Shown here: positions 6,402-25,885 of the stretch, one piece after another
Numbering within the stretch: position 1 is the first letter of the stretch
How the letters are laid out: each line of letters opens with the position of its first letter
Assembly: GCA_017625675.1 (NCBI GenBank)
Contig: JAGAKK010000049.1
Location: forward strand, 1 to 38,677
DNA length: 38,677 nucleotides
Origin: Clostridia bacterium
Lineage (GTDB): Bacteria > Bacillota > Clostridia > UBA1212
Reading direction: 5' to 3'
The notes under the pieces: generated by a model
Seen by the model: the letters and a program-made list of their open reading frames with translations, nothing else
Databases searched by the model: none
What the model was told of the DNA's origin: nothing
Made by a program: the position numbers and the translations under genes

Positions 6402-8229
6402 CCTTCTTTAACTTACTTTCCGCTTTCGCTCTCAGCTCCGTATTAAGAATCTTCTTTCTGAGTCTTATGCTCTTAGGCGTTACCTCCACAAGCTCATCAT
6501 CGGAAATAAACTCCAATGATTGCTCAAGGCTCAGAATAACGGGAGGCGTAAGTCTGAGCGCCTCGTCAGAGCCGGAAGCTCGCACGTTAGATATATGTTT
6601 TTTCTTGCATACGTTTATAACAAGGTCGTCAGGTCTTGCATTTTCGCCAACGATCATACCCTCATAAACCTTTGTATTAGCGCCGATAAAGAGTCTTCCT
6701 CTCTCCTGTGCGTTGAAAAGGCCGTATACAACGGATTCGCCCTGTTCCCAGGCAATCATTGAGCCTCTCTGACGAGAACTCATATCACCCTTGTATGCCT
6801 CATATCCGTCAAAAACGTGGTTCATAATACCGTTGCCCTTGGTGTCCGTCAAAAATTCGGAACGGTAACCGATAAGGCCTCTTGCAGGAATCTTGAATTC
6901 AAGCCTTACGTAGCCCTCTGCTCCGGGATGCATATCAAGCATTTCGCCCTTACGCACACCGATCTTCTCAATTACCACGCCCACAGTGTCCTCAGGTGTA
7001 TCAACCGTAAGTCTTTCAATAGGCTCATAAAGAAGCCCGTCCACCTCTTTGAAAATTACCTTGGGCCTTGATACCTGAAACTCGTAGCCCTGACGGCGCA
7101 TTGTCTCAATAAGCACGGAAAGGTGAAGCTCTCCTCTTCCGGAAACCTTAAGGGTATCAGGAGAATCAGTTTCCTCAACTCTCAGGCTGACGTTTGTTTC
7201 AAGCTCTTTAAAAAGTCTGTCTCTTATGTGACGTGACGTTACAAACTCGCCCTCAGTTCCTGCAAAAGGACTGTTATTAACGCTGAAATTCATTGAAAGC
7301 GTAGGCTCGTCAATATTTACAAAGTCAATAGGCTCAACGCAATCAGGCGCACAAACCGTGTCACCGATATTAAGGTCTGTAATACCTGCAACAACCACGA
7401 TATCACCTGCGCAGGCAGTATCCGTTTCCACCTTTTTAAGGCCTTTAAATTTATAAAGATAATTTATTCTGCCGTTTTTCTTTGAGCCGTCAGAGTTACA
7501 AACCACAACGCTCTGTCCGTTTGAAACAGTTCCGCGGTCAATTCTCGCAACGCCTATTCTTCCCACGTAATCATCTGCAGTAACGTTTGAAATAAGCATT
7601 CTGAAAGGCGCCTCCGTATCAACGGAAGGTCCGGGAATTTCTCTTATTATAGCCTCGAACAAAGGCTCCAGATCCTTTCTGTCGCCGCCGTCAGGTGAAA
7701 GTGATGCATATCCGTCACGGGAGGATGCATATACAACAGGAAAATCCAGCTGTTCATCATCTGCGCCGAGATCCATAAAAAGTTCAAAAACCTCGTCAAG
7801 AACCTCCAGTGGTCTTGCGCCGTCTCTGTCAATTTTGTTGATTACCACAATAGGCTTCAGTTTCATTGCCAGTGCCTTGGTAAGCACGAATCTCGTCTGA
7901 GGCATTGCTCCCTCAAAAGCGTCTACCAGAAGAAGAACGCCGTCGCACATTCCAAGGACTCTCTCTACCTCGCCGCCGAAATCTGCATGTCCGGGGGTAT
8001 CTACGATATTTATTGTGTAGTCCTTGTATTGGAGTGAAGTATTCTTTGAAAGAATGGTAATTCCTCTCTCCTTTTCAAGGTCGTTACTGTCCATTACGCG
8101 CTCTGCCACCGCCTCATTTTCACGAAAAGTTCCGCTCTGATGAAGAAGACCGTCTACCATGGTGGTCTTGCCGTGGTCAACGTGGGCAATTATTGCAATA
8201 TTTCTTATCTTATCTCTTGTTTGTATCAC
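6397..8229 (-). CDS. typA: Translational GTPase TypA/BipA
   Basis: About 610 residues, the usual TypA length. The G1 loop AHVDHGKTT is at about residues 15–23, followed by G3 (DTPGHADF) and G4 (NKID), the EF-Tu-like domain II, the EF-G-like domains III/V and the TypA-specific C-terminal domain. TypA binds ribosomes and helps 50S assembly and stress adaptation. The GTG at 8229 is chosen because GGAG lies 10 nt upstream; an in-frame TTG at 8238 is too close to that site. The gene has its own neighbourhood: an esterase gene ends 38 nt upstream, and a stem-loop repeat covers its end. Confidence 0.96.
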
Positions 8230-8267
8230 AAAAAACAAACTCCTTTGTACTGGATTAATTAATTATA

Positions 8268-9095
8268 TCACTTTTTATTGAAATTATCTTTAAGCCATCT
8301 TGAACAATTTTTCACCCAAGGCTGAAAGGATGGCTCCACGTGACAATCTGCCACATAGGTTACGTCATTTGCCAATGCAAGGCCGTGCACTCCCTTTTGC
8401 ACTATATGAAGCTCAAAAGGAATTCCGTTGTCGGAAAGAGCCTTTGCAAAAACAAGTGAGTTCTCCACAGGAACGGTCTCATCTTCAAAAGTATGAACGA
8501 TAAACGAAGGTGGTGTATGCTTGCCCACCTGCTTATACGGCGATATCTTTTCAAGAAGCTTTTCACGCGCCTCGCCCTCTGTTCCCCGAAGAAGAGTATT
8601 AAGGCAATCAGCAGGGCATTCTCCGATAGGTCCCGTCACAGGATAACACAAAACCAATGCATCGGGTCTGTTTTCGTCATTAAAGCATCCTGCAGTTGTC
8701 TGAATTTCTTTGTCATTCCAAAGAGTACCCAGCGTAGCGGCCAGATGACCTCCTGCAGAAAAGCCTGCAACTGCAATTGCATTCTCATTAACGCCCCACT
8801 CCTCTGAGTGTTCGCGGACAATCTTCATTGCCCTTGAAAGGTCGCAAAGGGAATTAGGAAACACCGCATCCTCGTTAAGGGAATACCTGATCACGAAGGT
8901 GTGAAACCCCTCTGCCGCAAAGGCCATTGCAATAGGTTCTGCCTCTCTGTCAGAGCACATAAAATATCCGCCGCCGGGACAAATCATCACAGCGGGCCTT
9001 ACGTGAAGAGCAGGCATTTCAGGGCTCTTGTCAAGAATATACGTTTCAAGATAAACCTTTCCGTCATCTCTTAAATTAATTTTTTCATATTTCAT
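8268..9095 (-). CDS. Alpha/beta-hydrolase, acetyl-esterase-like
   Basis: 275 residues. The oxyanion-hole segment CPGGGY is at 39–44 and the nucleophile elbow GFSAGG at 111–116 with Ser113. An acidic residue follows in FEDETVPVENS, and the histidine is in GVHGLAL near residue 240. The pattern fits the carboxylesterase/acetyl-xylan-esterase-like branch of the fold (BD-FAE/hormone-sensitive-lipase relatives). Such enzymes remove acetyl or feruloyl groups from plant glycans, but the substrate cannot be read from sequence. It has no signal peptide and so is cytosolic. Its ATG overlaps the cysE stop by 4 nt (ATGA), so the two are co-translated, although their functions are not obviously linked. Confidence 0.85.
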   Translation of the reverse strand: MKYEKINLRDDGKVYLETYILDKSPEMPALHVRPAVMICPGGGYFMCSDREAEPIAMAFAAEGFHTFVIRYSLNEDAVFPNSLCDLSRAMKIVREHSEEWGVNENAIAVAGFSAGGHLAATLGTLWNDKEIQTTAGCFNDENRPDALVLCYPVTGPIGECPADCLNTLLRGTEGEAREKLLEKISPYKQVGKHTPPSFIVHTFEDETVPVENSLVFAKALSDNGIPFELHIVQKGVHGLALANDVTYVADCHVEPSFQPWVKNCSRWLKDNFNKK

Positions 9096-9739
9096 TTTTT
9101 TGCCTCCAATTCAGCAAGCCTCTTATTAGTCGCCTCAAGCTCTCCTCTGAGCTGCGCGATTTCCTGAGCCACAGGGTCAATAATCTTCTGGTGCTCCAGA
9201 AGAAGTGAAGGAGACTCTACCCTCTCACCGTCTGTCTTGATAACTCTTGCCTTAATTCCCGTAACCGTGGAATTAGGGGGAACGTCTCCCAGAACTACAG
9301 ACCCTGAGCCGATCATTGAATTGTCGCCGATAGTAACAGGGCCTAAAATCTTCGCACCTGCTCCTATAAGCACGTTGTTTCCAACGGTAGGATGTCGCTT
9401 GGAATGGCGCTCTCTTCCGTTACCGCCCAGAGTCACCTGATGATATATCGTACAATTATTTCCCACAACGGCAGTCTCACCGATAACTACGCCGTGGCCG
9501 TGGTCAATAAAAAGACCTTCTCCTATAGTAGCGCCCGGATGTATCTCAATACCGGTTTTTCTGCTGGAGCGCTGCGAAACGTAGCGGGCAATCAAGGGCA
9601 TTTTGTGCCTCAGAAAAAACGCCGCAATGCGATGGTCGCGAAGAGCCTTAAAGCCCGGATAAAGAAGAATAACCTCCATCACGTTTCTCGCCGCAGGGTC
9701 TCTTTCCGCTATGGATTTTGCATCTTTAAAAAGTCCCAT
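9092..9739 (-). CDS. cysE: Serine O-acetyltransferase
   Basis: About 215 residues. A short helical N-terminal domain (1–65) is followed by the left-handed beta-helix of hexapeptide repeats (about 66–175), containing the DHGHGVVIGE active-site segment at 79–88. The tail ends in a short charged coiled coil (QLRGELEATNKRLAELE). CysE makes O-acetylserine from serine and acetyl-CoA, the first step of cysteine synthesis. The start is ATG 9739, with GAGAGG 6–7 nt upstream. A longer frame to 9817 adds 26 residues unlike the family and is rejected. The upstream gap has two GTGTCAC heptamers 7 nt apart, whose significance is unknown. It overlaps the downstream esterase gene. Confidence 0.93.
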   Translation of the reverse strand: MGLFKDAKSIAERDPAARNVMEVILLYPGFKALRDHRIAAFFLRHKMPLIARYVSQRSSRKTGIEIHPGATIGEGLFIDHGHGVVIGETAVVGNNCTIYHQVTLGGNGRERHSKRHPTVGNNVLIGAGAKILGPVTIGDNSMIGSGSVVLGDVPPNSTVTGIKARVIKTDGERVESPSLLLEHQKIIDPVAQEIAQLRGELEATNKRLAELEAKK

Positions 9740-9820
9740 ATAAATCCTCTCAAAAATTAAACAATTAAAATAATATATTCCGTTATAAACCCTTGTGACA
9801 CTAAAAACGTGACACAAAAT

Positions 9821-11011
9821 TTATAAATAACTTACAACCTCTGCACACTTATCGTCAATGTAATAAGCTCTTGTAACTCGTCTTCCCACGCCGCAAAGAA
9901 TTTCGTAATTAAATGATCCTGCAATTCCGGAGACCTCTTCTGCACTTAAATACTCACCCCTTGATGAGCCGAACAAAACAGCCTCATCACCAACCTTCAC
10001 GTCGGAAAGACCGGTAACGTCCACCATAGTCTGATCCATACAGACTCTTCCTAAAATCCTGCACCGTTTACCGTTAATAAGCACGCAGCCCTTATTGGAA
10101 AGCGCTCTCGGATAGCCGTCTGCATATCCTGCAGAAAACACCGCTACCCTCATATCCTTTTCTGCGATAAAGGTATGTCCATAGCTTACGCCGCGGCCTT
10201 TTTTCAGGTCAAAAACGTTGGTAACGTGAGCAACCACAGACATTACAGGCTTTATCGGAAAAGCATCAATCCCTACGTCAAAGGAAGGATAGTGTCCGTA
10301 AAGAACGATTCCTGCCCTTACCATATTGCAGGTGACAGGAAATTCCATTATTCCTGCGCTGTTACTGATATGAATGATTGGGGGCTCAACACCCTTCTCT
10401 TTAAGTTTCAAAACAAATTCATCAAAGAGAGCCTTCTGCTTCAATGCGGTGGTCTTGTCTTTTTCATCCGCCGTTGCGTAATGAGAAAATACACCTTCAA
10501 CAAAAACGTTATCAAGGGATGCAATTTTAACGGCAATTTTTATGCCTTCATCATCAGCCGGGAGCCCTATTCTTGACATTCCCGTATCAACGGCAATATG
10601 TATCTTCGCAGTCCTGCCCTCTTTTCCGGCAATCTCAGACAAAAGCCTTGAGTCTTCTTCTCTGTAAATTGTCAGGGTAATATCATTAAGCACCGCATCT
10701 TTAAAAAATTCAGGAGGTGTATACCCAAGCACCAGAACAGGCTTCTCACCGATACCCTCCTGTATTACGATATTATCTTTTTTTCTGGGGGCTCTCAATT
10801 CAAGAGCCTCGTCAACACCTGCCACACCGAACATATCCACACGGTCTCTTATGTATCCGGAAATCTTCTCCGCGCCGTGGCCGTAGGCATCAGCCTTTAC
10901 AACAGCAAGGAGCCGCACACCTGCAGGAATGCGGCTTTCTATTACAGAAAGGTTATGTTCAAGCGCGTCCATATCAATTTTAGCGCAAATTCTGTTGTAA
11001 ACAGGCTTCAT
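9821..11011 (-). CDS. alr: Alanine racemase
   Basis: 396 residues. The PLP lysine is K39 in VVKADAYGHG. The TIM-barrel landmarks HIAVDTGMSRIG and HISNSAG and the second catalytic tyrosine segment GVSYGHTF (C-terminal half) are present, as is the CMDQTMVDVT motif. It makes D-alanine for peptidoglycan. ATG 11011 is preferred over TTG 11020 because AGGAGAGG lies 10 nt before the ATG but directly abuts the TTG. cysE follows after an 81-nt gap. Confidence 0.95.
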   Translation of the reverse strand: MKPVYNRICAKIDMDALEHNLSVIESRIPAGVRLLAVVKADAYGHGAEKISGYIRDRVDMFGVAGVDEALELRAPRKKDNIVIQEGIGEKPVLVLGYTPPEFFKDAVLNDITLTIYREEDSRLLSEIAGKEGRTAKIHIAVDTGMSRIGLPADDEGIKIAVKIASLDNVFVEGVFSHYATADEKDKTTALKQKALFDEFVLKLKEKGVEPPIIHISNSAGIMEFPVTCNMVRAGIVLYGHYPSFDVGIDAFPIKPVMSVVAHVTNVFDLKKGRGVSYGHTFIAEKDMRVAVFSAGYADGYPRALSNKGCVLINGKRCRILGRVCMDQTMVDVTGLSDVKVGDEAVLFGSSRGEYLSAEEVSGIAGSFNYEILCGVGRRVTRAYYIDDKCAEVVSYL

Positions 11012-11065
11012 TTCGGGCAAGCCTCTCCTTACTTTTTATACTAAAACAAAATTTAAGGTCTGAAA

Positions 11066-12280
11066 TCAAAGACCCAATATTTTCTTAACTTCTTTTACAA
11101 GAAGCTCTGCATTCTGCTCGTGAGCAGAAACTACGGGGTGACCTATTCCGCCTTCATTGTTGTTAACAAAATCAGTAAAAGCGTAAATACCTGCAGCCTC
11201 TCCGCCTGCTTCCTTTACTGCCGCCTCAACGAGGGGAGCAGCAACCGGTGTAACACCGCCGAAAGCCCAGAGAATTTTTGCATCAGGATTGTTTTTACGA
11301 ACCATTTTAATCAATGACACGAAACCGTCCTGAATCTGCTTTTCAGTCCAACCCTTTTCGCAACTCATATCGTTGCTTCCAAGGTTTATGATAACTAAAT
11401 CAGGCTGCTTTTCAAAGCCCCACGCATCATTTCTGCCGCGCTGATAACAAGTTTTCTCATAGGTTTCAAGCATTGTATGAGGCTGCCAGCCAATACCTGC
11501 GCCGATTCCCTGCTGAGCTATAATGCTGTAGTCTGCGCCAAGCTTCTTCATAGCAAGGCAAGCATAGGCTCTCGTTCCGTCCTGATAATACGAAGAGCGT
11601 GGATTATTAAGAGGATCCTTTGCGCCGCCGGTGTTGTTGGGATAAAGGTTTCCGTATCCTGTCGTGATAGAATCGCCTATAACCTCGATATAAACGTTGC
11701 TCTCTTCCGGTCTTGCATCAAATTCACCTGAAAATGACACGGAATTAACGTACAGGTCACCGTATTCAGCTTCGTTCTGACGTTCAATCATAAAGGTATG
11801 AGTACCCTTTGCAAGTCCCTTACCAAGAACCAATTCGTGACTGCCCTGTGTCAAGGCATAGAGGTCACGTGTTCCCTGCAAAACTCCGTCCACGTAGACG
11901 TTGATAAACAAAACAGGACGTCTGTTAGCATCTATTGCCATAGGATTTGCGTGAATAACTGCAGAAACGTCGCCTTCACAGCAAGCTCTGAACTCCACGG
12001 AAGACGCAGTAAAGTCAAGCGCAATGCCCTTGCCGGCCTGATAATCAACAACCTTCGTTCTTCCCTGAACCTTTGAATTATTGAAAAGAGTCTCTGCGTC
12101 CATAGTCTTCAATGAAAAATCCACAACAGCAGGATCTTTAGTGGGCGCGGCTGTAGGAGCAGGCCTCGGGGTAGTAACGTTTCCCTTTGAGTCATCCTTA
12201 CCTTTATCACAGCCAACCACAAAACATGATGAAACAGCCAATAACGTAACCATAATAAATGTCAAACACCTTTTTATCAT
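11066..12280 (-). CDS. SGNH/GDSL esterase lipoprotein, CE2-like
   Basis: About 404 residues. A type II signal peptide ends in the lipobox VVGC with Cys24, followed by a Thr/Pro-rich linker. A jelly-roll N-terminal domain (about 65–190) precedes an SGNH domain. The nucleophile is Ser204 in IGDSITTGYG, followed by NLGSND (Asn block) and a C-terminal GIGHPVVSAH segment with the catalytic histidine. The jelly roll plus SGNH layout is that of carbohydrate esterase family 2, which deacetylates xylan or mannan at the cell surface. The exact substrate is inference. ATG 12280 is preceded by AAGGTGAT; an in-frame GTG at 12289 lies inside that site. It follows the transketolase genes after 36 nt, hinting at a pentose-glycan theme. 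Confidence 0.85.
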   Translation of the reverse strand: MIKRCLTFIMVTLLAVSSCFVVGCDKGKDDSKGNVTTPRPAPTAAPTKDPAVVDFSLKTMDAETLFNNSKVQGRTKVVDYQAGKGIALDFTASSVEFRACCEGDVSAVIHANPMAIDANRRPVLFINVYVDGVLQGTRDLYALTQGSHELVLGKGLAKGTHTFMIERQNEAEYGDLYVNSVSFSGEFDARPEESNVYIEVIGDSITTGYGNLYPNNTGGAKDPLNNPRSSYYQDGTRAYACLAMKKLGADYSIIAQQGIGAGIGWQPHTMLETYEKTCYQRGRNDAWGFEKQPDLVIINLGSNDMSCEKGWTEKQIQDGFVSLIKMVRKNNPDAKILWAFGGVTPVAAPLVEAAVKEAGGEAAGIYAFTDFVNNNEGGIGHPVVSAHEQNAELLVKEVKKILGL

Positions 12281-12316
12281 TGATATCACCTTAAAAGTTT
12301 ATACTTCAAACAACAA

Positions 12317-13252
12317 TTATTTTCTTGCAACAGCAGCTTCTGTAGCCTCTGCAATCTTCTCTGCAGTAAGACCGAACTTCTCAAGAAGCTCAGCAGGCTT
12401 ACCGGAAGTACCGAAAGTATCGTTAAGACCGATCCTCTTTACGTAGCAAGGACAAGTTTCAGCAAGAGCCTCGCAAACTGCTCCGCCAAGTCCGCCGATA
12501 ATGTTGTGCTCCTCAACGGTAACGATTGTTCCCGTAGCCTTTGCACACTCAGCAAGAAGATCCTTGTCGATAGGCTTAATTGTATGAATATCAACTACTT
12601 TTACATTGATGCCCTTAGCCTTAAGAAGCTCAGCAGCCTTAACAGCCTCCTGCACCATAAGACCTGTAGCAACGATAGTAGCGTCATTTCCGTTGTCGCA
12701 AAGAACGATACCCTTGCCAAGCTCAAACTTCTGATCCTCTGTGTAAAGCTCCTCTACTCCGAGGCGACCAAGTCGCAGATATACGGGTCCCTCGTGCTCA
12801 ATAGCAGCCTTTATAGCAAAGCGTGTCTCCTGGGCATCGCAAGGACTCATAACTACCATGTTGGGAAGTGATCTCATAATAGCAAGATCCTCTACGCACT
12901 GATGGGAAGCGCCGTCCTCACCAACGGAGATACCTGCGTGTGTAGCGCCGATCTTTACGTTGAGCTTAGGATAGCAAATAGAGTTTCTGATCTGCTCGCA
13001 AGCTCTCTCTGCCGCAAATACTGCAAAGCTGGAAGCAAATACTACCTTGCCTGTAGTAGCAAGACCTGCCGCAACAGCCATCATATTGCCCTCTGCAATA
13101 CCCATATTAATGTGTCTTTCAGGATAAACCTTCTTAAACGTGTCGGTCTTGGTGGATTTTGAAAGGTCCGCATCAAGAACCACGATTCTCTCGTCTCCGC
13201 CGAACTCGGCAAGAGCCTTTCCGTAAGCTTCTCTTGTAGCAATCTTAGCCAT
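12317..13252 (-). CDS. Transketolase C-terminal subunit (split type)
   Basis: 311 residues. It carries the pyrimidine-binding domain (1–180) with the catalytic glutamate segment NMGIAEGNMMA and the GATHAGISVGEDGASHQ stretch, and the transketolase C-terminal domain (190–305) with TVEEHNIIGGLGGAV. With the adjacent upstream gene it forms a two-subunit transketolase, which moves two-carbon ketol units between pentose and hexose phosphates. The upstream subunit ends only 2 nt before this ATG, so the two are co-translated, ensuring equal amounts. Relatives in sugar-specific operons have similar sequences, so a specialised ketol transferase cannot be fully excluded. Confidence 0.93.
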   Translation of the reverse strand: MAKIATREAYGKALAEFGGDERIVVLDADLSKSTKTDTFKKVYPERHINMGIAEGNMMAVAAGLATTGKVVFASSFAVFAAERACEQIRNSICYPKLNVKIGATHAGISVGEDGASHQCVEDLAIMRSLPNMVVMSPCDAQETRFAIKAAIEHEGPVYLRLGRLGVEELYTEDQKFELGKGIVLCDNGNDATIVATGLMVQEAVKAAELLKAKGINVKVVDIHTIKPIDKDLLAECAKATGTIVTVEEHNIIGGLGGAVCEALAETCPCYVKRIGLNDTFGTSGKPAELLEKFGLTAEKIAEATEAAVARK

Positions 13253-14691: not shown

Positions 14692-15017
14692 AAGCTGAGC
14701 CACGGCGTCAGATAAGTTGAGCCACGGCGTCAGACGCTGTGAATGAGTCAGTGACCTGCCCCCTGACTCATAAGGCACAAAGCCTTTCTAGAAAACGGTT
14801 TTGCCGAAAACAGGTGGCATATCGGTGGCATAATTTCGCCTTTAAAAAAGAGCCACAGCGTCTGACGCTGTGGTCCGTTTTTGATTGATTGCACCTGAAA
14901 TATACAAAAACGGACCAAAAGAAGTCTTTTGTGGCTCCTTTGGGACGCTCTGAATACAGTTCATCAATAACAAAGCGTCCGCAAAGAGCCACAGCGTCTG
15001 ACGCCGTGGCTCAGCTT
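14692..15017. mobile_element. MITE-like structured element with 21-bp terminal inverted repeats
   Basis: The 417-nt gap between rpiB and the P-ATPase is filled by a 326-bp element. Bases 14692–14712 and 14997–15017 are perfect 21-bp inverted repeats. Inside are further palindromes: GCGTCTGACGC-type units at 14719–14741, 14850–14874 and 14986–15012, a TGGTCCGTTTTT/AAAAACGGACCA pair, a GGACGCT/AGCGTCC pair, and a TGAGTCAG-family unit at 14743–14771. A 74-codon minus-strand frame (14768–14992) runs through it but has no recognisable domain, and I do not call it a gene. Its right end lies 4 nt from the P-ATPase stop codon. No transposase is encoded; no clear target duplication was seen. Confidence 0.6.
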
Positions 15018-15021
15018 TAAA

Positions 15022-17565: not shown

Positions 17566-17604
17566 GCAAGGGAGCCACAGCGTCTGACGCTGTGGCTCCC
17601 TTGC
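17566..17604. repeat. Perfect 18-bp-stem palindrome downstream of receptor 1
   Basis: Two 18-nt arms (17566–17583 and 17587–17604) pair perfectly around a 3-nt loop. The core, GCCACAGCGTCTGACGCTGTGGC without a break, is the same palindrome found three times in the MITE-like element at 14692–15017. It lies 25 nt beyond the stop codon of the first TIR gene and upstream of the P-ATPase. No strong T run follows on the minus strand, so it is not a classic terminator. Confidence 0.75.
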
Positions 17605-17629: not shown

Positions 17630-20500
17630 TTATGCGTTCAGATCAATCCACAAAGCGGGGCGCACGGCATTGCCAGAATTGAGGACAACGAAGCCGCGCT
17701 CACGGATGCCGCCGAAATTGCCGACAATGGCGGCAGTATTCTGATATTCGCCGGGCGACCGCAGCCACCACCAGCAGTTGCCGTTGTCGCTATTAGCATA
17801 TACTCCACGCGCAACTGCATAATCTGTAGGTTCACACTGCCTTATACTTTCGGAGTAGAAATATTTTTCTGCTTCAATAATACTCAGCAAAAACACCTGA
17901 TCCTGCGTTGCGTTACCGGGATTGGTGCTGTAATTTGGATTTTTGTCTGCCGACACAGTAGCGCTATGAATCATATCCTTTTCATTGGCAGAAAATGCCG
18001 CATTGATAAAATCATTGTTTAGCCAATTGCGAAGAGTGCAGGTCTCCCAATTAACGTCTGCAGAACTCGTATTGTATTGTTTGCAATCAAGAGCGTATTT
18101 ACTGATGACAAGGATTTTTGTTCCTTCTTTTGACAAAACCAGCCACTCAATAGCTTCTTGGCCATTAGATTTGCTGTTATCCTGTTCATACGAGCCAAAT
18201 TTGTATGTATCCCCAACATTTATATTTTTGATTTTATTCCATACTTCTTCGCCATAGATATTAATATTGCAGTCTTCGATTCTATTGATGCTGTCTCTAT
18301 ATCCCTCAAGAGCCTCAAATGCATAGATGGCCTCAGTATATTTACCTGCGTCCATCAATGCAATCGCATCGTTGTATTTGCCATCAAGAATAGTTGTTTT
18401 GCATTCTCCTATCTTTGTTGTACTGTCTTTATATCCAGCAAGCGTTTCAAATGCAGATATCGCTTCACTATATTTACCTGCGTCCATCAATGCAATCGCA
18501 TCGTTGTATTTGCCATCAAAAATAGTTGTTTTACATTCGCTTATCTTTGTTGTACTGTCTTTATATCCAGCAAGCGTTTCAAATACAGATATCGCTTCAC
18601 TATATTTACCTGCGTCCATCAATGCAATCGCATCGTTGTATTTGCCGTCAAGAATAGTTGTTTTGCATTCGCTTATCTTTGTTGTACTGTCTTTATATCC
18701 AGCAAGCGTTTCAAATGCAGATATCGCTTCACTATATTTACCTGCATCCATCAATGCAATGGCATCGTTGTATTTGCCGTTAGGAATAATAACAGTATTC
18801 AAGATTATTATGAAAACAATTATTGCACAAACGATAGGTGCTGTGATGATTGCTATTTTCTTGATTCGTTTTGCTCTTTCTTCTGCTTTCTTGCGGGCAA
18901 TTTCCGCTTTGCGCTCACATTCTAAGCGTTTTGCTTCTTCCTTTGCCTCAATCTCTGCAATTTTATTTTTGCACTCCTCTATCAAAGCAGCGGAATTTTT
19001 CCACTCCGGAATGCTGTTAAGAAGATTGATAGCAATTTTGTATGAAGCTTTAGTATTTACACTCATACTGTTCTTTGCTGCAATGAGCTGGCTATCCTTA
19101 CGCGCAACCTCAGCTTTCTCCACGCATATTTCAACTAATCTGTCAGCATCCTTATACCCGGACAATTCCTTGAACTGAATTGCAGCATTCTTGTATTCGT
19201 TTTCTGTTTTTGCAGAAGCCATTTTAAAATGAGCGCTTGAATACAAACTCTCTAACCGCTCGTTTTCATTGCGAACGTTGATATGCTCTATATAACCCGA
19301 CAATGTTGCCTTCAACTTATCATCCGCAAAGCGAACCGCTTTCTGATAGTTATTCATCGAATCAAAAGGTTCTGCACAATCCTTCAAAGAATCTTGCTGT
19401 TTAACCTTTAGTTCAACCATAAGTTTTGCAACGTACGCCTCAGCACACTCAGGCTCAATATCCAGCACCTTTTCGCAGTATTCGTTGGCAGCGTTCCAAT
19501 CACCATCCTCTAAAAATATAAAAGCACGTTTTAAAAGCGGAGCAGTATTGGCATTACTTCCAGTAACCACAGTTTCCTTTACAATAGTAGCAGACTTCGG
19601 TTCTTCTTTGTTTATGACCTTTTTTATTCCCCTTACCACGTCGTTAATGAATCCTATTTTGCTCATATCCTGGGCCTGCAGATGCGCAAACTCCTCCGGA
19701 AGCTCATAGGCATCCATATCACGATAACAGGGAATAAGAATCTTGTTGCGGTCTTTCTTAATAATTTTCAAAAATCTTGACCACTCATTTTTGACCCACA
19801 CGGCGTTGAAATACTCCGGTTTCGTTCCTATTGCAAGCATCACCTTGGCAGAATTAAGCGCCGCAAATATTATAGGCTCGTAGGCACTTCCCAACTTTCC
19901 CTCAAGGGTAATCGCCGCATAGAACACCTTGAAGCCTTCCTGTGTAAGCTGGTAATAAATATCGTTGGCAATGACGCTGTCCTGCGTTCTCTGTCCGTTT
20001 GCGTCAGTCTCCTTGTAGCAAAGGAAAACGTCGTAGGACTCCTCTTTTTGCGCAAGAGCAAGGATCTCCTTTTGAATGCGGTCAATCTCTCTCGCCTGCT
20101 CCTCGTAAAGCGCACGCTGGCTGATGTCTGCATACTCAAGGGCAGACTTGTAATCGTCATCCGCCACAATGGAATCAAAGGAAGCTCTGTGGCAGGTCGG
20201 CACCTTTTTAAACGTAGCAGGGTCGTCAACGTACTCAATGCCGTACTTACAAAGTATCAGACCCCAATAAGCCTCTGACTGAGTGCTGTCTGCCTGAACA
20301 ATTTTCTCGTAAAGCCTTTCCGCCTTGTCAAACTCACTCTTAATACGCAGAGTATTTGCGCGGTTGAAAAGGTTCTGCAAGTTTTCATCCATTGCCTTCG
20401 GAACAGTTTGCTTTGTTCCGCAATATTCACATTCTACAACGGTTATGCCCTCAGCGATTTCAAGGTCGCCACCGCACATTTTACATTTAAAAATTGACAT
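17630..20500 (-). CDS. TIR-domain transmembrane receptor with DUF6273 lectin-like domain (receptor 1)
   Basis: 956 residues. Order: zinc ribbon (Cys 6, 9, 24, 27); helical TPR-like part (40–150); TIR domain (about 155–290), starting YDVFLCYKETD, with candidate NADase Glu239 in WVKNEW; a second helical region (315–510); a Lys/Glu/Arg coiled coil (511–546); one membrane span (about 548–571) preceded by RAKRIKK; four near-identical 44-residue TPR-like repeats (575–750); and a DUF6273/C-type-lectin-like domain (about 765–956) ending in the WWWLRSPG…AVRPALWI frame. The basic side predicts TIR inside, lectin-like part outside. Residues 918–944 are hypervariable against the paralogue upstream. A role in NAD+-depleting defence is inferred from the TIR family; no ligand is known. 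RBS AAAGGGA lies before ATG 20500. Confidence 0.88.
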   Translation of the reverse strand: MSIFKCKMCGGDLEIAEGITVVECEYCGTKQTVPKAMDENLQNLFNRANTLRIKSEFDKAERLYEKIVQADSTQSEAYWGLILCKYGIEYVDDPATFKKVPTCHRASFDSIVADDDYKSALEYADISQRALYEEQAREIDRIQKEILALAQKEESYDVFLCYKETDANGQRTQDSVIANDIYYQLTQEGFKVFYAAITLEGKLGSAYEPIIFAALNSAKVMLAIGTKPEYFNAVWVKNEWSRFLKIIKKDRNKILIPCYRDMDAYELPEEFAHLQAQDMSKIGFINDVVRGIKKVINKEEPKSATIVKETVVTGSNANTAPLLKRAFIFLEDGDWNAANEYCEKVLDIEPECAEAYVAKLMVELKVKQQDSLKDCAEPFDSMNNYQKAVRFADDKLKATLSGYIEHINVRNENERLESLYSSAHFKMASAKTENEYKNAAIQFKELSGYKDADRLVEICVEKAEVARKDSQLIAAKNSMSVNTKASYKIAINLLNSIPEWKNSAALIEECKNKIAEIEAKEEAKRLECERKAEIARKKAEERAKRIKKIAIITAPIVCAIIVFIIILNTVIIPNGKYNDAIALMDAGKYSEAISAFETLAGYKDSTTKISECKTTILDGKYNDAIALMDAGKYSEAISVFETLAGYKDSTTKISECKTTIFDGKYNDAIALMDAGKYSEAISAFETLAGYKDSTTKIGECKTTILDGKYNDAIALMDAGKYTEAIYAFEALEGYRDSINRIEDCNINIYGEEVWNKIKNINVGDTYKFGSYEQDNSKSNGQEAIEWLVLSKEGTKILVISKYALDCKQYNTSSADVNWETCTLRNWLNNDFINAAFSANEKDMIHSATVSADKNPNYSTNPGNATQDQVFLLSIIEAEKYFYSESIRQCEPTDYAVARGVYANSDNGNCWWWLRSPGEYQNTAAIVGNFGGIRERGFVVLNSGNAVRPALWIDLNA
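17669..17749 (-). other. Candidate DGR variable region VR1 (codons 918–944 of receptor 1)
   Basis: This 81-nt segment aligns without gaps to 20646–20726. I count 30 mismatches: 14 at first, 13 at second and 3 at third codon positions. It is preceded by 35 nt identical in both genes (through GGTCGCCCGGC) and followed by a 17-nt identical GC-rich stretch starting CGCCCCGCTTTG. Codons unchanged between the copies are GCC, GCC, GTC, GGC, GAG, GGC and GTC, nearly all lacking A. That is the pattern of adenine-specific DGR mutagenesis of an AAY-rich template. No template repeat was found in the window. Confidence 0.72.
18251..18778 (-). repeat. Four tandem 132-bp repeats in receptor 1
   Basis: Four in-frame units of 132 bp encode 44 residues each, beginning GKYNDAIALMDAGKY. 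The first three units differ by only a few bases; the fourth is more diverged. The paralogue has a single unit at the same place, so the 137-residue length difference is almost wholly three extra units. The near-identity indicates recent expansion by slippage or unequal crossing-over. The units resemble TPR/Sel1-like helical hairpins and would form a stalk outside the membrane. Confidence 0.92.
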
Positions 20501-20546
20501 AGTAATTTCCCTTTCTGTTTACAGCCATACGGCGGTATTAAGATTT

Positions 20547-20579
20547 GCGTGCTTCGCACGCGGATTGCGCCTGCGGCGC
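20547..20579. repeat. Two GC-rich hairpins after receptor 2
   Basis: GCGTGC-TTC-GCACGC (20547–20561) and GCGCC-TGC-GGCGC (20567–20579) are two perfect short hairpins in the 106-nt gap between the two receptor genes. They begin about 28 nt after the receptor 2 stop codon. No T run follows. They may be a weak terminator, or the hairpin that often follows the variable region of DGR target genes. Confidence 0.55.
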
Positions 20580-20606
20580 CGAGTGGATGATTTCAGATTA
20601 AAAGAT

Positions 20607-23066
20607 TCAAGAGTTCAGATCGATCCACAAAGCGGGGCGGACAGCAGTGTCAGCGTAGTTGACAGTGCTGCCGTACTCGCCGACGTCGCCGTCAAGGCTG
20701 ACATAGGCGGCAATAAGCAGATCGTCGCCGGGCGACCGCAGCCACCACCAGCAGTTGCCATTGTCGCTATTAACATACGCTCCGTTGGCAACTGCATAAT
20801 CCGTGGGCTTACACTGTCTTGCATTATCAGAATTAAAATATTTATTCGCTTCCGGAATGCTTAATAAGAACACTTGATCCTGCGTTGCGTTGCCGGGATT
20901 AGTGCTGTAATAGGGATTCTTATCTGCCGACACCGTAACAGTTGGAATCCTTGCCTTTTCATCGGCGGAAAATGCGGCATTGATAAAATCATTATTCAGC
21001 CACTTGCGGAGTGTGCAGGTTTCCCAAGTGACATATTCCCGTTCTTTGTTGTACCGCTGACAGTCAAGCGCATATTTGCTGACTACAAGTGCCTTTCCGT
21101 CTTTTACTTCAAGAACAAGCCATTCAACATCTTCTTTACCGTTTGAGGTGTTGTTATCTTGCTCGTATGCGCCAAAAAACACATAATCTCCAGCTTTGGC
21201 AATCTTCAATTTTTCAACCTTGTACTGATCATAAATCGAGTTTGCTTTGTCTGCACTATCCTTATATCCGTCTAATGCTACCAGAGCTTCGTACGCCTCA
21301 ATGATACTCCCGGCATCCATCAACGCTATCGCATCGTTGTATTTGCCGTTGGGAATAATAACCGTGTTCAAAACGATAATAAAAGCAATGATAGTGCAAA
21401 CAATAGGGGTTGTAATAATCGCTATCTTCTTGTTGCGCTTGGCTCTTTTTTCTGCTTCCTTGCGTGCAATTTCAGCTCTTCGTTCACGCTCTAACCGTTC
21501 CGCTTCGGCTTTTGCCTTAATTTCCTCTATCTTCTTTTGGCAAGCGTAAATCTTTTCGTCGGCATCCTTCCAACCAGAGATAGATTCAAACAGTTTTATG
21601 GCAGCTTCGTAGTTGGAGATAACCTCACCGGTCATTTTGGATTTTCCTTCGGAGAGAATGGCATCCTTTCTTGCTATCTCCGCCTTCTCATAGCACGACT
21701 GTGCAAGAACGGCAGAATCTTGATATTCATCAATAGATTCAAAGAGATGAGCCGCTTCCTTATACGCACTCTCGGTATTTGCCGCAGACATGGCATTTTT
21801 CGCACGGGTATAGATACTATCAAGACGGGCGTTTTCGTTGCGGGTATTGATATGCTCTATGCAGCCGGCAAGTGCTGTCTTTAATTTCTCGTCAGCAAAG
21901 CGGACGGCTTTTTGATAATTGTTGTTATGATCAAAGGGTTCTGCTTGTTCTTTTAATGCTTCTTGTTTCCTTACTCTCAGCTCCGACAACAATTTGCCCA
22001 AATAAGCAGAAGCGTTTTCGGGATCGATATCCAGCACTTTTTCGCAGTATTCGTTGGCAGAATTCCAATCGCCATCTTCAAGGAACATAAAGGCTCGCTT
22101 CAAAAGAGGGGCAGTATTAGCGTTTCCACCGCTGATTACCGTTTCTTTGACAACGGTTGTTTTAGGAGCATCTGCCTGCGCGATCTTTTTAATGCCTCGA
22201 ATCAGATCCTGCATAAAGCCGAGTTTGGACATATCCTGTGCTTGAAGATGCGAAAACTCTTCCGGCAGATCGTAGGGATCCATATCCTTATAGGCGGGAA
22301 TCAGCATTTTCTTCTGACCTTGCTTGATAAGAGCAAGGTAACGGCTCCATTCATTACGTACCCATACGGCGTTGAAAAATTCGGGTTTTGTGCCGAGAAC
22401 CACCATCACCTTTGCGGAGTTTAGCGCCGCAAAGATATAAGGCTCGTAAGCAGAGCCGAGCTTATCTTCCAATGTAATACGAGCAAAGAAAACCTTGAAA
22501 CCTTCCTGAGTTAATTGATGATATAAATCGTTAGCCAAAACACTGTCAGGTGTACGGCGACCGTTATTATCCGTTTCCTTGTAGCAGATAAACACGTCAA
22601 AAGGCTCTTCCTGCTGCGAAATTGCAAGAATACCTTTTTGAATTTCATTGATTGCCTTTGCCTCGTTTTCATAAATTGTTCGCTGATAACTGTCGGCATA
22701 CTGAAGCGCTGACTTATAGTTGTCATCATCAAAGATGGATGTAAATTGAGCTCTGTTCACCGTAGGGATACGCTTATGTGAAGAAGGGTCCTCTACGTAT
22801 TCGATACCGTACCGGCATAAAACGAGAGACCAATACGCCTCCGCATCATTCTTGTCCTCGTTAAGTATGTTTTCGTATATTCCCATTGCCTTGTCGAACT
22901 CATTGTTGCGGCGAAAATGGTTTGCGCGGTCATACATATTCGCGCGCTTATCGTCATCGAGCTTAGGCAACGTCTGTTGTGTACCACAGTATTCACAAGT
23001 TGCTACAGTTTCGTTATTGTTAATCTCAAGTGTGCCACCGCACATTTTACATTTAAACAGTGCCAT
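20607..23066 (-). CDS. TIR-domain transmembrane receptor with DUF6273 lectin-like domain (receptor 2)
   Basis: 819 residues, a close paralogue of the downstream gene. Zinc ribbon (Cys 6, 9, 24, 27); TIR domain about 155–290 beginning FDVFICYKETD, with candidate catalytic Glu239 in WVRNEW; helical region; Lys/Glu/Arg-rich coiled coil (511–547); membrane span (about 548–571); a single TPR-like unit (574–615); DUF6273 lectin-like domain (about 625–819). Residues 781–807 are the variable segment. The start codon follows the HEPN gene stop by only 5 nt, and that gene's last codons supply the AAGGGG ribosome site, so the two are translationally coupled. TIR domains of this kind consume NAD+ or make nucleotide signals; which one applies here is unknown. 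Confidence 0.88.
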   Translation of the reverse strand: MALFKCKMCGGTLEINNNETVATCEYCGTQQTLPKLDDDKRANMYDRANHFRRNNEFDKAMGIYENILNEDKNDAEAYWSLVLCRYGIEYVEDPSSHKRIPTVNRAQFTSIFDDDNYKSALQYADSYQRTIYENEAKAINEIQKGILAISQQEEPFDVFICYKETDNNGRRTPDSVLANDLYHQLTQEGFKVFFARITLEDKLGSAYEPYIFAALNSAKVMVVLGTKPEFFNAVWVRNEWSRYLALIKQGQKKMLIPAYKDMDPYDLPEEFSHLQAQDMSKLGFMQDLIRGIKKIAQADAPKTTVVKETVISGGNANTAPLLKRAFMFLEDGDWNSANEYCEKVLDIDPENASAYLGKLLSELRVRKQEALKEQAEPFDHNNNYQKAVRFADEKLKTALAGCIEHINTRNENARLDSIYTRAKNAMSAANTESAYKEAAHLFESIDEYQDSAVLAQSCYEKAEIARKDAILSEGKSKMTGEVISNYEAAIKLFESISGWKDADEKIYACQKKIEEIKAKAEAERLERERRAEIARKEAEKRAKRNKKIAIITTPIVCTIIAFIIVLNTVIIPNGKYNDAIALMDAGSIIEAYEALVALDGYKDSADKANSIYDQYKVEKLKIAKAGDYVFFGAYEQDNNTSNGKEDVEWLVLEVKDGKALVVSKYALDCQRYNKEREYVTWETCTLRKWLNNDFINAAFSADEKARIPTVTVSADKNPYYSTNPGNATQDQVFLLSIPEANKYFNSDNARQCKPTDYAVANGAYVNSDNGNCWWWLRSPGDDLLIAAYVSLDGDVGEYGSTVNYADTAVRPALWIDLNS
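20646..20726 (-). other. Candidate DGR variable region VR2 (codons 781–807 of receptor 2)
   Basis: Counterpart of 17669–17749 in the other receptor. It lies between an identical upstream anchor (TGCTGGTGGTGGCTGCGG and on) and the identical downstream CGCCCCGCTTTGTGG block, which would be the position of the mutagenic-homing initiation site. At 19 of 27 mismatches in first or second codon positions one of the two copies still has A, as expected if both derive from a template with A there. Confidence 0.72.
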
Positions 23067-23071
23067 TTTTA

Positions 23072-23683
23072 TTACCCCTTATGTATCTCTTTGTCTATAA
23101 TTTCTACCAGATTACAAACGATTTCAATCCATTCCTCAACTGTATTTTCTCTTATAGGAGAAAGTGCGTATTTATCGTTGTCATTTGCATTATCTGCCTC
23201 ATGAACAATTTTGTGTCTACGTTTAATAAGTTTATTCAGTTTTTCTTGGTCTTTAAATTCACTTAAATCAATCCTTATTTTTGTAGACCAAGAAACGATA
23301 TCTTGATAATCATTAAAACTGGTAAAGCTTAATGCTTCTTGTATAGATTCTGTAATCAATTGCTCAACTGTTTTTTCACGAAGTTTTAGCAAACCGCCTA
23401 ATGTAATTTTGTCTTTGTGATTGCCTGCACTTCCAAGGAAAGAAATATTTTTAAGATCGTCCTCTGTGCATACTTTCGGCAAAATGGAACTTAAAACGCT
23501 CCTATAATATTCTTCAAAAGATGAATGTAGCAAGACAACCGCAGACCTTAAAATATCAGTAAATTTGTACTCTTTTCCCTCTTTTACATCATCGCTTTTT
23601 AGCGAGTTGTATATTTTACGCAAACTACATACGCGCTCAATGTTTCTATCAAACAGTTGTTTATATTGTTCAATTTCGTTCAT
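23072..23683 (-). CDS. HEPN-domain protein (RiboL-PSP-HEPN-like), putative ribonuclease
   Basis: 203 residues, almost all helical. The segment LLHSSFEEYYRSVL (51–64) resembles the first helix pair of RiboL-PSP-HEPN proteins, and RRHKIVHEAD (155–164) contains the HEPN catalytic Rx4H motif (R156…H161). HEPN proteins of this group are RNases or toxin/effector subunits in defence and toxin–antitoxin systems. Here it lies between a membrane protein gene (10 nt away) and a TIR receptor gene (5 nt away) in the same operon, so a role with the receptors is likely but inferred. No antitoxin nucleotidyltransferase is nearby. Its base composition looks more AT-rich than the his genes. Confidence 0.75.
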   Translation of the reverse strand: MNEIEQYKQLFDRNIERVCSLRKIYNSLKSDDVKEGKEYKFTDILRSAVVLLHSSFEEYYRSVLSSILPKVCTEDDLKNISFLGSAGNHKDKITLGGLLKLREKTVEQLITESIQEALSFTSFNDYQDIVSWSTKIRIDLSEFKDQEKLNKLIKRRHKIVHEADNANDNDKYALSPIRENTVEEWIEIVCNLVEIIDKEIHKG

Positions 23684-23693
23684 ACCCCAACAC

Positions 23694-24392
23694 TCACTTT
23701 AGTAGTTTACATTTCTTACTTCTGTCACCAAGCAAAATGATTATTTCATCGGCAAGCGTTACAACTGTTTCTGAATCTTCAGAAATAACTGCTTCGGAAA
23801 ACTTCGAGAATTTTATGGTAATATCACTTTCAACAGATGTAAGCGCATCGTTGCTCATTGGATCGGAATAGCGAACGGTTTCATAAACCTTTTTACACTC
23901 TGCTTTAATTGTTTCGTTTTTCGCACGGGCAATAAGGCTTTCCGCATCAACAGTTAGTGACTTGATAAAAAATGTTTTTGTTTTAACTTTATTGTCGATT
24001 TCACTGACGATGTCAATGGCAGCGCTCGCTTTAATTACAGCAATGATATTAATCGTAAGAACGATTGCGCAAAGAATAATTCCCACCCAATAAGAAAGGG
24101 GCGAAATGATCATACATAATCCGCCAACAACAAAGGAAAGAATCAGTCCGGTGTAGCTGGTAGATATAAGCGAAACATTGTAAAACGTCTTTTTAATATC
24201 ATCATCTTTGAAGGCAAAATAAGCGCATACAATTTGGCCTATGAATGATGCTGTTATAAATGTATACCCGATCCAAAAAGAAGGCGTGTATTTTGAGATT
24301 CCTGCCCATCCAACAGATACAAAAGAAATTACATTGAATAAGACTAAAAGGATAACCCAAATAAGAGAATAAACTTTAAATATCTTTTTCAT
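23694..24392 (-). CDS. Four-TM membrane protein of unknown function
   Basis: 232 residues. About four hydrophobic spans (roughly 8–28, 40–60, 73–93 and 97–118) are followed by a soluble helical C-terminal part of about 110 residues. I recognise no domain. ATG 24392 is chosen because GGAGG lies 8 nt upstream; a longer frame to 24425 would overlap the previous gene. It starts 14 nt after the SPFH gene stop and is followed closely by the HEPN gene, so it belongs to this operon. A scaffold or membrane partner for the SPFH protein is a possibility, not shown. Confidence 0.75.
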   Translation of the reverse strand: MKKIFKVYSLIWVILLVLFNVISFVSVGWAGISKYTPSFWIGYTFITASFIGQIVCAYFAFKDDDIKKTFYNVSLISTSYTGLILSFVVGGLCMIISPLSYWVGIILCAIVLTINIIAVIKASAAIDIVSEIDNKVKTKTFFIKSLTVDAESLIARAKNETIKAECKKVYETVRYSDPMSNDALTSVESDITIKFSKFSEAVISEDSETVVTLADEIIILLGDRSKKCKLLK

Positions 24393-24406
24393 TTTCGACA
24401 CCTCCA

Positions 24407-25801
24407 TTAAAGTTTTTCGCCACATTCAAGGCAAAACTTAGCGCCTGAAACAAGTTCTTTTCCACAATTAGGACAAACCATCAAAAACTTGTGGCCGCAT
24501 TCAGGACAGAATTTCCCTTTAGCAACAGTATTTCCGCATTCAGGACATACAACTTTATCTGCAGCAACAACCTTCTCTCCACACTCTAAGCAAAATTTTG
24601 CATTATCAGGAAGTACTGCGCCACATTTAGCACATTTTGCATTACTATTTTCTTGTACAGGTTTCTCTGCAGAATTTGAAAAGCCTTTAAACATTTCCCC
24701 AAGCTGAGGTGCAACAGCACCCGCTGCAGCCATACCGACACCGAGACCTATCATATCACCTGCAACTCCGCCACCGCTGCCATTAATTGTCATATTGCCA
24801 ATTCCTTCTGCATAGGCCTTCTGTACGTCGGCAGCCAAAACGTCTCTTTGGTTGTATCCTTTCGCTGCCATAACCTCTGCTTCTGCCAAACCAGCCATTT
24901 TTGCGGCTTGTGCCTCTGCTTGCGCACGAATAAGCTCACGCTCTGCTTCACGCCTTGCCACTTCTGTTGCAGTTAACTGACGTTCCATCTCCATTTTACG
25001 ACGAGCTGCAGTAACTTCCGCTTCCGCATCCGCCTGTGCCGACTTTACAAGTGCATCAGCTTGAATCATTCTTGTCTGGAATGACACAGTATGTAATTCC
25101 TTCATTTTTCGGAAATTAGGATCATTTTCAGGAAGTGCAACATTCGTAATATAGAACTGAGGAATTGTAAGACCATATTCTTCAAAACCACCGATAATGC
25201 TTTTACGCATTATTTCCGACAGCATTTCAAGCTTTTCATCAATTTCGAGAATGTTGATATTGTTCGTTTTTATCGCATTTGACAGATTCGACTTCACTGC
25301 TGTTGAAATAAGAGGACGGAATGAATTCTGCACGGATTTTGTAAATCCTATACCATTTTCTCCCCAAGCTATGCCATTCATTGTTCCGACAAGCTTCAAA
25401 AGAAGTTTACGTGAATCTGCAACAGCAAGATTCATTTCTCCACAAGCTCCAATTTCTAACGGTATACCAAGATTAGGGTCCAGATATCTTACCTTTGAAT
25501 CAGTCCCCCATTTAATGGCCATCTGCACTGTCTTGTTTACAAAATATACTTCGCAATGAAACGGTGTTTCTCCATCGACTGTTTTATTAATAAATTTACC
25601 GAGTTTAGGAATATTTTGCGTCTCTAACGTATGTCTACCGGGGCCAAACAAATCAAGAGCCTCACCGTTCATAAAGAAAATTGCTTCCTGACTCTCGTGA
25701 ACTATAAGTTGAGTAAGACTGTTAAAGTCCTCCGAAGGATGTTTCCACACAAAGGTGCTATTATCGCCTTCATACTTAATTACTTCTGCAATTTTTGCCA
25801 T
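24407..25801 (-). CDS. SPFH/band-7 protein with three C-terminal zinc ribbons
   Basis: 464 residues. An SPFH domain of the YdjI/'virion core protein' type occupies about 1–235. An Ala/Glu/Arg-rich coiled coil (245–335) and a Gly-rich stretch (340–365) follow. Three CxxC…CxxC zinc ribbons end the protein (Cys 390/393/404/407, 419/422/432/435, 443/446/457/460). There is no clear transmembrane span. SPFH proteins form oligomeric membrane-associated scaffolds; the zinc ribbons may bind nucleic acid or protein and echo the single zinc ribbon at the start of both TIR receptors. ATG 25801 has GGAGG 8 nt upstream; a longer frame to 25843 is rejected. It is the first gene of the five-gene cluster. Confidence 0.85.
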   Translation of the reverse strand: MAKIAEVIKYEGDNSTFVWKHPSEDFNSLTQLIVHESQEAIFFMNGEALDLFGPGRHTLETQNIPKLGKFINKTVDGETPFHCEVYFVNKTVQMAIKWGTDSKVRYLDPNLGIPLEIGACGEMNLAVADSRKLLLKLVGTMNGIAWGENGIGFTKSVQNSFRPLISTAVKSNLSNAIKTNNINILEIDEKLEMLSEIMRKSIIGGFEEYGLTIPQFYITNVALPENDPNFRKMKELHTVSFQTRMIQADALVKSAQADAEAEVTAARRKMEMERQLTATEVARREAERELIRAQAEAQAAKMAGLAEAEVMAAKGYNQRDVLAADVQKAYAEGIGNMTINGSGGGVAGDMIGLGVGMAAAGAVAPQLGEMFKGFSNSAEKPVQENSNAKCAKCGAVLPDNAKFCLECGEKVVAADKVVCPECGNTVAKGKFCPECGHKFLMVCPNCGKELVSGAKFCLECGEKL

Positions 25802-25885
25802 TGAAAATACCTCCATAATATTTATATGCAACATAAAATACAAATTTGTTGTAAAACTTTACAAAATACCTATTCTATCAACCTA

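Follow-up and report, generated by a model that had tools for sequence, protein, structure and literature searches.

Diversity-generating retroelements (DGRs) are already known to diversify lectin domains of conflict proteins that carry or are linked to TIR domains in Thiohalocapsa and cyanobacteria, and DUF6273 domains in phages, as far as the accessible text of the respective reports goes. Here, we describe two tandem genes located in a 38,677-nucleotide stretch of DNA from a Clostridia bacterium (assembly GCA_017625675.1, contig JAGAKK010000049.1; hereafter the window), which encode proteins that combine a TIR domain, one predicted membrane helix and a C-terminal DUF6273 domain, and which we name receptor 1 and receptor 2. 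An earlier reading of the sequence alone had proposed candidate DGR variable regions in both genes. Our overall reading, to which we assign a probability of roughly 0.85, is that these are DGR-varied regions in predicted membrane-spanning TIR receptors having the lectin domain outside and the TIR domain inside the cell. The degrees of confidence expressed for this reading and, separately, for its parts are our own estimates and not measured values.

The DGRs of Thiohalocapsa PB-PSB1 have been presented as putative antigen sensors (PMC10907252). According to the accessible parts of that report, they resemble the system studied here in that C-type-lectin domains are varied on proteins or in loci with TIR and other conflict domains, that some targets are thought to be varied in trans, and that the targets of DGR 3 and DGR 9 have membrane helices and a lectin domain predicted to be periplasmic. 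However, the TIR-bearing target of DGR 2 also contains a CHAT domain and is predicted to be cytoplasmic, and these are ternary or STAND systems of multicellular bacteria. In the window receptors, the TIR domain and the DUF6273 lectin are predicted to be placed across the membrane in one chain, with an SPFH protein and a small membrane protein as likely partners. DUF6273 is known as a phage DGR target from the tentaclins (PMC10743442) and from Faecalibacterium prophages (PMC11792537), which also have a DGR variable region in a DUF6273 domain of C-type-lectin-like fold; these are phage proteins, though, and the accessible text of both papers does not describe a TIR or membrane receptor architecture. 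Conflict-system DGRs (PMC7159879) and cyanobacterial targets (PMC7517822) show links of DGRs to vWA ternary systems, and TIR-like and TPR parts are present in their variable proteins, but their lectin domains are of the FGS type, their cores are other ones, and a DUF6273 membrane receptor is not described in the available portions of these papers. The Treponema denticola protein TvpA (2y3c) is also among the closest known systems. The word TIR is absent from the main text, as far as accessible, of a global survey (PMC8144416). The literature searched, which mostly did not include subscription papers and bioRxiv preprints, did not name a TIR receptor of gut Clostridia whose DUF6273 domain is varied and predicted to be outside.

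Animal Toll-like receptors have leucine-rich repeats in place of a lectin-like domain. The window receptors resemble them in having a predicted outside domain, a membrane helix and an inside TIR domain, and the sole sequence match among solved chains was the TLR15/TLR2 TIR domain (7ylf, E 5.3e-6). They differ in the reversed chain (TIR first), the lectin-like domain and the probable diversification by a retroelement.

Differences between the variable regions and the inferred template

The variable regions, the receptor genes with their domains, the hairpins and terminator-like stem after them and the upstream genes are all located on the minus strand. The two variable regions correspond to codons 918-944 of receptor 1 (17669..17749) and codons 781-807 of receptor 2 (20646..20726). 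As had been noted, they differ from each other at 14, 13 and 3 bases at codon positions 1, 2 and 3, respectively. The claim that this is the reverse of normal divergence was borne out, since the remaining 792 aligned codons give 204, 151 and 449 mismatches (Fisher test of positions 1 and 2 versus 3, stretch versus rest, p = 5e-7), and the closest of the 754 27-codon windows lying clear of the stretch has 12, 13 and 14. Third positions differ in 3 of the 27 codons, whereas in the part of DUF6273 just before the stretch they differ in 52 of 108 (p = 3.6e-4). Seven codons are unchanged (GCC, GCC, GTC, GGC, GAG, GGC and GTC), and six of them do indeed lack A. The identical flanks stood only in part: 35 identical nucleotides precede the regions when codon 918 contributes its first two bases, but the 17 identical nucleotides downstream do not adjoin them, being preceded by two third-position differences (codons 945 and 946). 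The GC-rich end of the variable region, CGCCCCGC, is present in both receptor genes. As third positions are nearly fixed, both regions look recently copied from one source and thereafter altered at chosen bases.

The same genome contains a third end that resembles a variable region, in a gene for a DUF6273 protein on contig C48 (L012:4949-6112, minus strand). This gene has the same inner flanks, contains an additional codon between them and differs at more third positions, and the N-terminus of its product looks, by eye, like a lipoprotein signal.

The sequence-only reading had explained the differences by a template having AAY at most varied codons, and the residue spectrum of homologues supports this. 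A search with receptor 2 yielded at least 7999 proteins at E 1e-50 or better, and all of the best 120, those for which DUF6273 carriage is known, contain this domain; the receptor is therefore not rare. These 120 homologues form the basis of the following counts; disregarding gaps, all of them share 86% identity or more with the window protein outside the variable region, and 113 have distinct variable regions. Mean entropy reaches 2.14 bits within the region, compared with 0.087 for the TIR domain, 0.43 for the preceding part of DUF6273 and 0.175 for the C-terminal flank. The kept scaffold consists of AA, V, G, V, E, G, V and then AVRP, and what varies are about 15 AAY codons and single adenines in GAY, CAG and GAG codons. 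The inferred template accordingly consists of AAY codons plus CAG, GAY, GAG, GCC, GTC and GGC in fixed places, and reads about NNQNNAANVNNDGDVNENGNNVNNDNN.

Nearly all residues of the relatives can be reached from this template by changing an A. At the 15 AAY positions, 1778 of 1797 residues are reachable by A-to-N substitution, and residues that NNY cannot encode (K, E, Q, M and W) are found 19 times in 1797, versus 657 times in 3581 in the 30 most variable other columns. The CAG position is occupied by Q, R, L or P in 118 of 120 proteins, the GAY (GAC) positions by A, D, G or V in 330 of 360 cases and the GAG position by A, E, G or V in 114 of 120. The codons of the inferred template were taken from the same columns as those tested, with third bases partly from the window genes, and due to this partial circularity p values are descriptive only; what counts is the joint agreement of several codon classes in these alignments.

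We compared the inferred template with 14 places, including two copies in L017, L212 beside L018, and the G039 template. Receptor 2 differs from it at 19 of 35 A sites and fits at all 46 non-A bases, a fit that is partly circular. Receptor 1 differs at 21 of 35 A sites. A separate region set, which includes the G039 template as a row together with the variable genes of G039 and G041, comprises the 28 of 40 found regions that have the common length (26 distinct); the remaining 12 were dropped.

Variation could also have arisen with no retroelement, through recombination among paralogues or strong positive selection. The tandem arrangement of the genes fits such an origin, and so does locus L017, where a receptor 3' end with an identical variable region has been copied (8453-8776 and 10019-12442) and the similarity ends sharply on both sides. 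However, these processes would leave unexplained the near-absence of K, E, Q, M and W, the columns restricted to D/G/V/A and Q/R/L/P and the conserved third bases, as well as the templates and reverse transcriptases (RTs) found beside the same domain in relatives. We consider an origin with no retroelement extremely improbable. Recombination or plain positive selection was rejected on account of the residue spectrum.

Templates, RTs and Avd genes in relatives

Templates were searched in 25 genomes with a query having asparagine at every varied position. Two matches (77 and 85% identity) were obtained, both in short frames, and the templates belong to G039 and G041. In G039, the order is receptor gene, Avd-like gene, template and RT. 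In G041, the template directly precedes the RT and the variable gene is located on a separate contig; the two contigs may adjoin, because each contig end holds part of an Avd gene. In a third genome, G142, a variable gene, an Avd-like gene (77% identical), a template and an RT 70% identical to that of G041 are all present in a single 3041-bp contig. The RTs of all three genomes contain the motifs GNQTSQW and YMDD.

These relatives sharing the domain have template/variable repeat pairs with mismatches at A sites: template and variable region differ at 15 of 37 A and 1 of 84 non-A positions in G041, at 16 of 36 and 1 of 85 in G039, and at 20 of 36 and 1 of 82 in G142. Moreover, the template adenines of relatives predict where the two window copies differ, both for G041 (25 of 38 A sites versus 7 of 70 non-A sites, p = 2.6e-9) and for G039 (23 of 36 versus 9 of 72, p = 8e-8). 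The candidate variable regions are thus supported by the template adenines of relatives, by the residue spectrum of homologues and by the cassettes beside the same domain, and they are almost certainly of DGR origin.

Among the 47 genomes with genes of the family, 12 have some RT match at 1e-8. Remains of cassettes were found in two genomes. In G037 (Emergencia sp. 1XD21-10; L029, 12533-13909), the receptor gene is followed by a short Avd-like gene and an RT in pieces with a stop, and a template was not seen by eye at this locus; in G003 (L017), the receptor shares 86% identity with receptor 2, and all that is left of the RT is an end of 63 residues directly after a hairpin. Together with the cassettes of G039 and G041, these remains indicate that cassettes can adjoin receptors and are sometimes lost. 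An Avd gene is present in 3 of 16 genomes (G039, G041 and G037) and additionally in G142; for the G039 protein the bAvd score is 37.0 bits, slightly below the cut-off of 40. A search at the genus level covered the window's own genome (G000) only. An RVT_1 search of 36 genomes gave matches in 13, and judged by eye from their motifs these appear to comprise group II, retron-like and other RTs alongside DGR types. An A-tolerant scan of the variable regions against nine of these RT loci revealed no template.

Other DGRs were observed in these searches. L114 (G021:C107) contains one with a different small target (a 194-codon open frame with, by eye, a DUF6273-like end), a template and an RT, in which the differences fall on 10 of 19 A sites and on none of the 52 others. 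L115 (G031:C2, about 7700-10400) contains an apparent prophage DGR that, by eye, consists of a long structural-looking target, a template-like repeat and an RT. The template pattern matched 10 stretches in viral_contigs, of which 9 have an RT match and which are apparently phage DGRs of another kind; a tighter template pattern gave zero matches in viral_contigs. The receptor search of viral_contigs found one contig, L212, with the same receptor score as L018.

Small hairpins are known as marks of DGR targets. Small GC-rich hairpins are present 3' of the variable gene in all five loci having a DGR RT or its remains (L017, L029, L049, L059 and G142). By the rule used, which includes terminator-like stems, hairpins were detected in 16 of 49 downstream stretches, versus 2.7% of base-shuffled ones. 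Receptor 2 is followed by two small GC-rich hairpins (20547..20579; GCGCC-GCA-GGCGC and GCGTGC-GAA-GCACGC), and by the same rule no small hairpin was found downstream of receptor 1.

Receptor architecture, predicted topology and neighbouring genes

Receptor 1 (17630..20500, 956 residues) and receptor 2 (20607..23066, 819 residues) share the order zinc ribbon, TIR, TPR, one predicted membrane helix, TPR and DUF6273. The TIR domain comprises residues 158-280 of receptor 1 (19661..20029; PF13676, E 2.1e-10) and residues 158-281 of receptor 2 (22224..22595). The YEP motif of receptor 2 contains Glu208, which is invariant across the 38 aligned sequences of alignment A2 and which, by analogy with TIR enzymes, is a putative catalytic residue. 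The fold assignment is supported by the PF13676 match, by the sequence match to a solved chain and by fold matches (VIA-align) to SPARTA, plant resistance and SARM1 TIRs.

The DUF6273 domain is located at 17642..18118 in receptor 1 (PF19789, E 1.4e-27) and at 20619..21101 in receptor 2, where its model is C-type-lectin-like; the variable region lies within this target domain. Among solved structures, the ectodomain is matched best by an IgA protease domain from a gut bacterium. The full-length receptor model has a predicted template modelling score (pTM) of 0.38, and its domain arrangement was therefore not used.

The predicted membrane helix corresponds to residues 552-572 of receptor 1 (18785..18847; hydropathy 2.82) and residues 551-571 of receptor 2 (21354..21416; hydropathy 2.46), and in both proteins the net charge is +5 before and -1 after it. 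We analysed 39 full-length family members with a DUF6273-motif end, excluding L212 as a repeat of L018. A single strong hydrophobic helix is present in 33 of them, always N-terminal to DUF6273, and its N side is the more positive one in 31 of these 33, in line with the positive-inside rule. Judged from these predictions, the varied DUF6273 domain very probably lies outside the cell and the TIR domain inside.

Several features of the family were observed besides. Receptor 1 only contains a 132-bp tandem repeat (18291-18778; 3.7 copies, 93% match) that codes for TPR units. In relatives, the zinc ribbon-TIR-TPR front is joined to various other C-terminal ends (e.g., L020, L039, L071 and L073), which by eye apparently include RCC1-like repeats, and several related loci have more than one zinc ribbon-TIR-TPR gene. 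By their names, the related records belong to Clostridia, and most of them come from animal guts.

Three genes are located upstream of receptor 2. The nearest (23072..23683) encodes a HEPN_RiboL-PSP protein (PF18735, E 3.1e-14) with an RHKIVH motif (RxxxxH), and no match to this gene was found in 79 related loci. It is preceded by the gene for a 243-residue membrane protein that has three hydrophobic segments and falls into no Pfam family (23694..24425) and by that for an SPFH/Band 7 protein with C-terminal zinc ribbons (24407..25843; PF13421, E 2.4e-36), which are present upstream in 44 and 45 of 72 loci with a receptor gene, respectively. Both are found in 35 of the 50 related loci having at least 6 kb of upstream sequence. 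This looks like a conserved operon, and therefore the receptor likely works with the SPFH and membrane proteins.

Activity and function of the system

The assembly of the window's own genome is 76% complete and consists of 88 contigs. A DGR-type RT and a template had been expected elsewhere in this genome, and neither was found in the assembly at this completeness: there is no RVT_1 protein, no match to the RT of a relative and no template, and no Avd-like gene was found in it either. The left-flank pattern (up to 3 mismatches) detected three variable genes only, and an N-rich, template-like protein query gave four matches in this genome, all in open frames of at least 265 codons. No template was seen in nine genomes of the same family (cut 0.01), the listed matches all being in frames of at least 137 codons. 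Thirty-one genomes of the order (cut 1e-11) gave two matches, both variable genes, and 391 genomes of the class (cut 1e-13) gave one template, that of G142, and one variable gene; the latter two cuts are strict, and diverged templates would be missed. The RT of L121 scores 63.9 bits against PF00078, well above the cut-off of 29.6, and hence an RT of the window's own genome should be detectable if assembled. That the machinery acts in trans, as the sequence-only reading had supposed, is one possibility with an assembly of this completeness. However, the machinery adjoins the variable gene in G039, G142 and probably G041, so that a cis cassette that was lost or not assembled is at least as likely. 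The situation in this genome may thus reflect loss, an assembly gap or trans action.

Besides these negative searches, several results weigh against our overall reading. Six of the 46 non-A bases of the inferred template are changed in receptor 1; it is the receptor without a small hairpin that shows this drift, which in a single pair is only a hint. L049 and L075 have 18 and 15 non-A differences from the inferred template, so that other templates are needed for them. Among the 47 genomes, an intact-looking RT more than 50% identical to the query is present only in G039 and G041. The target in G142 is a 237-residue fragment without its N-terminus at the contig end, in which no TIR domain is visible. 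In total fold energy, the sequence downstream of receptor 2 does not surpass shuffled sequences (z -0.71; 51 of 200 do as well). At the threshold used, no membrane helix is recognised in six of the 39 full-length members, and no PADLOC family matched either receptor or two of the upstream proteins.

Some of these results would be expected if the regions were made by a DGR in a lineage that has since lost its RT and template, leaving ordinary fixed alleles. The missing RT, Avd gene and template, the six non-A changes of receptor 1, and the RT end of L017 and broken RT and short Avd gene of L029 all fit such a loss. Against it stand the complete, though partly circular, non-A match of receptor 2 to the inferred template, the distinct variable regions of nearly all close homologues, and the tendency of assemblies to break, as it seems, at cassettes (that of G142 is on a 3-kb contig and that of G041 is split inside Avd). 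We consider such a loss unlikely, and lean towards the machinery being active in this very lineage.

In the mechanism that we envisage, a DGR RT would have copied an RNA template with adenine-specific errors and written the copies into the 3' ends of the receptor genes, as suggested by the substitution pattern and by machinery seen only in relatives. The varied domain would bind a surface ligand, which might belong to a phage or some other microbe. Binding may bring the TIR domains together and start NAD+-based signalling or scaffolding, likely in concert with the products of the upstream SPFH and small membrane protein genes.

Whether this amounts to defence is, in our estimate, an even question. 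The receptors may belong to a genuine DGR and have another role, with the lectin serving adhesion or the sensing of kin or host glycans and the TIR domain only signalling, which we regard as possible and somewhat short of an even chance. PMC8144416, in its accessible text, takes most cellular DGR targets as membrane-anchored binders of outside particles, cells or viruses. The IgA protease match of the ectodomain and the lack of a PADLOC match also agree with a non-defence role. The invariant glutamate of the YEP motif and the resemblance in fold to the TIRs of SPARTA, plant resistance proteins and SARM1 speak for defence instead, as does a weak similarity to a type III Thoeris protein (E 1.3e-6), which stays well short of the curated cut-off.

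We tentatively propose that Toll-like receptors of the membrane form a large family in gut Clostridia. A retroelement would keep rewriting their outside lectin tip and would provide each lineage with an anticipatory repertoire of surface sensors; these would set off TIR signalling via an SPFH and membrane-protein partner, the whole amounting to a bacterial equivalent of a variable immune receptor. If true, single-celled gut bacteria would join the two halves of such a receptor, a retroelement-rewritten binding face and TIR signalling, in one membrane protein. The family would offer a testable case for the role of bacterial DGRs outside phages and a natural library of varied lectin faces for ligand matching.

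Finally, a terminator-like structure with an 18-bp stem is located after receptor 1 (17566..17604). A repeated element, GAGCCACRGCGTC, is present in five intergenic copies, some of them in palindromes (14697-15020 and 17566-17604).

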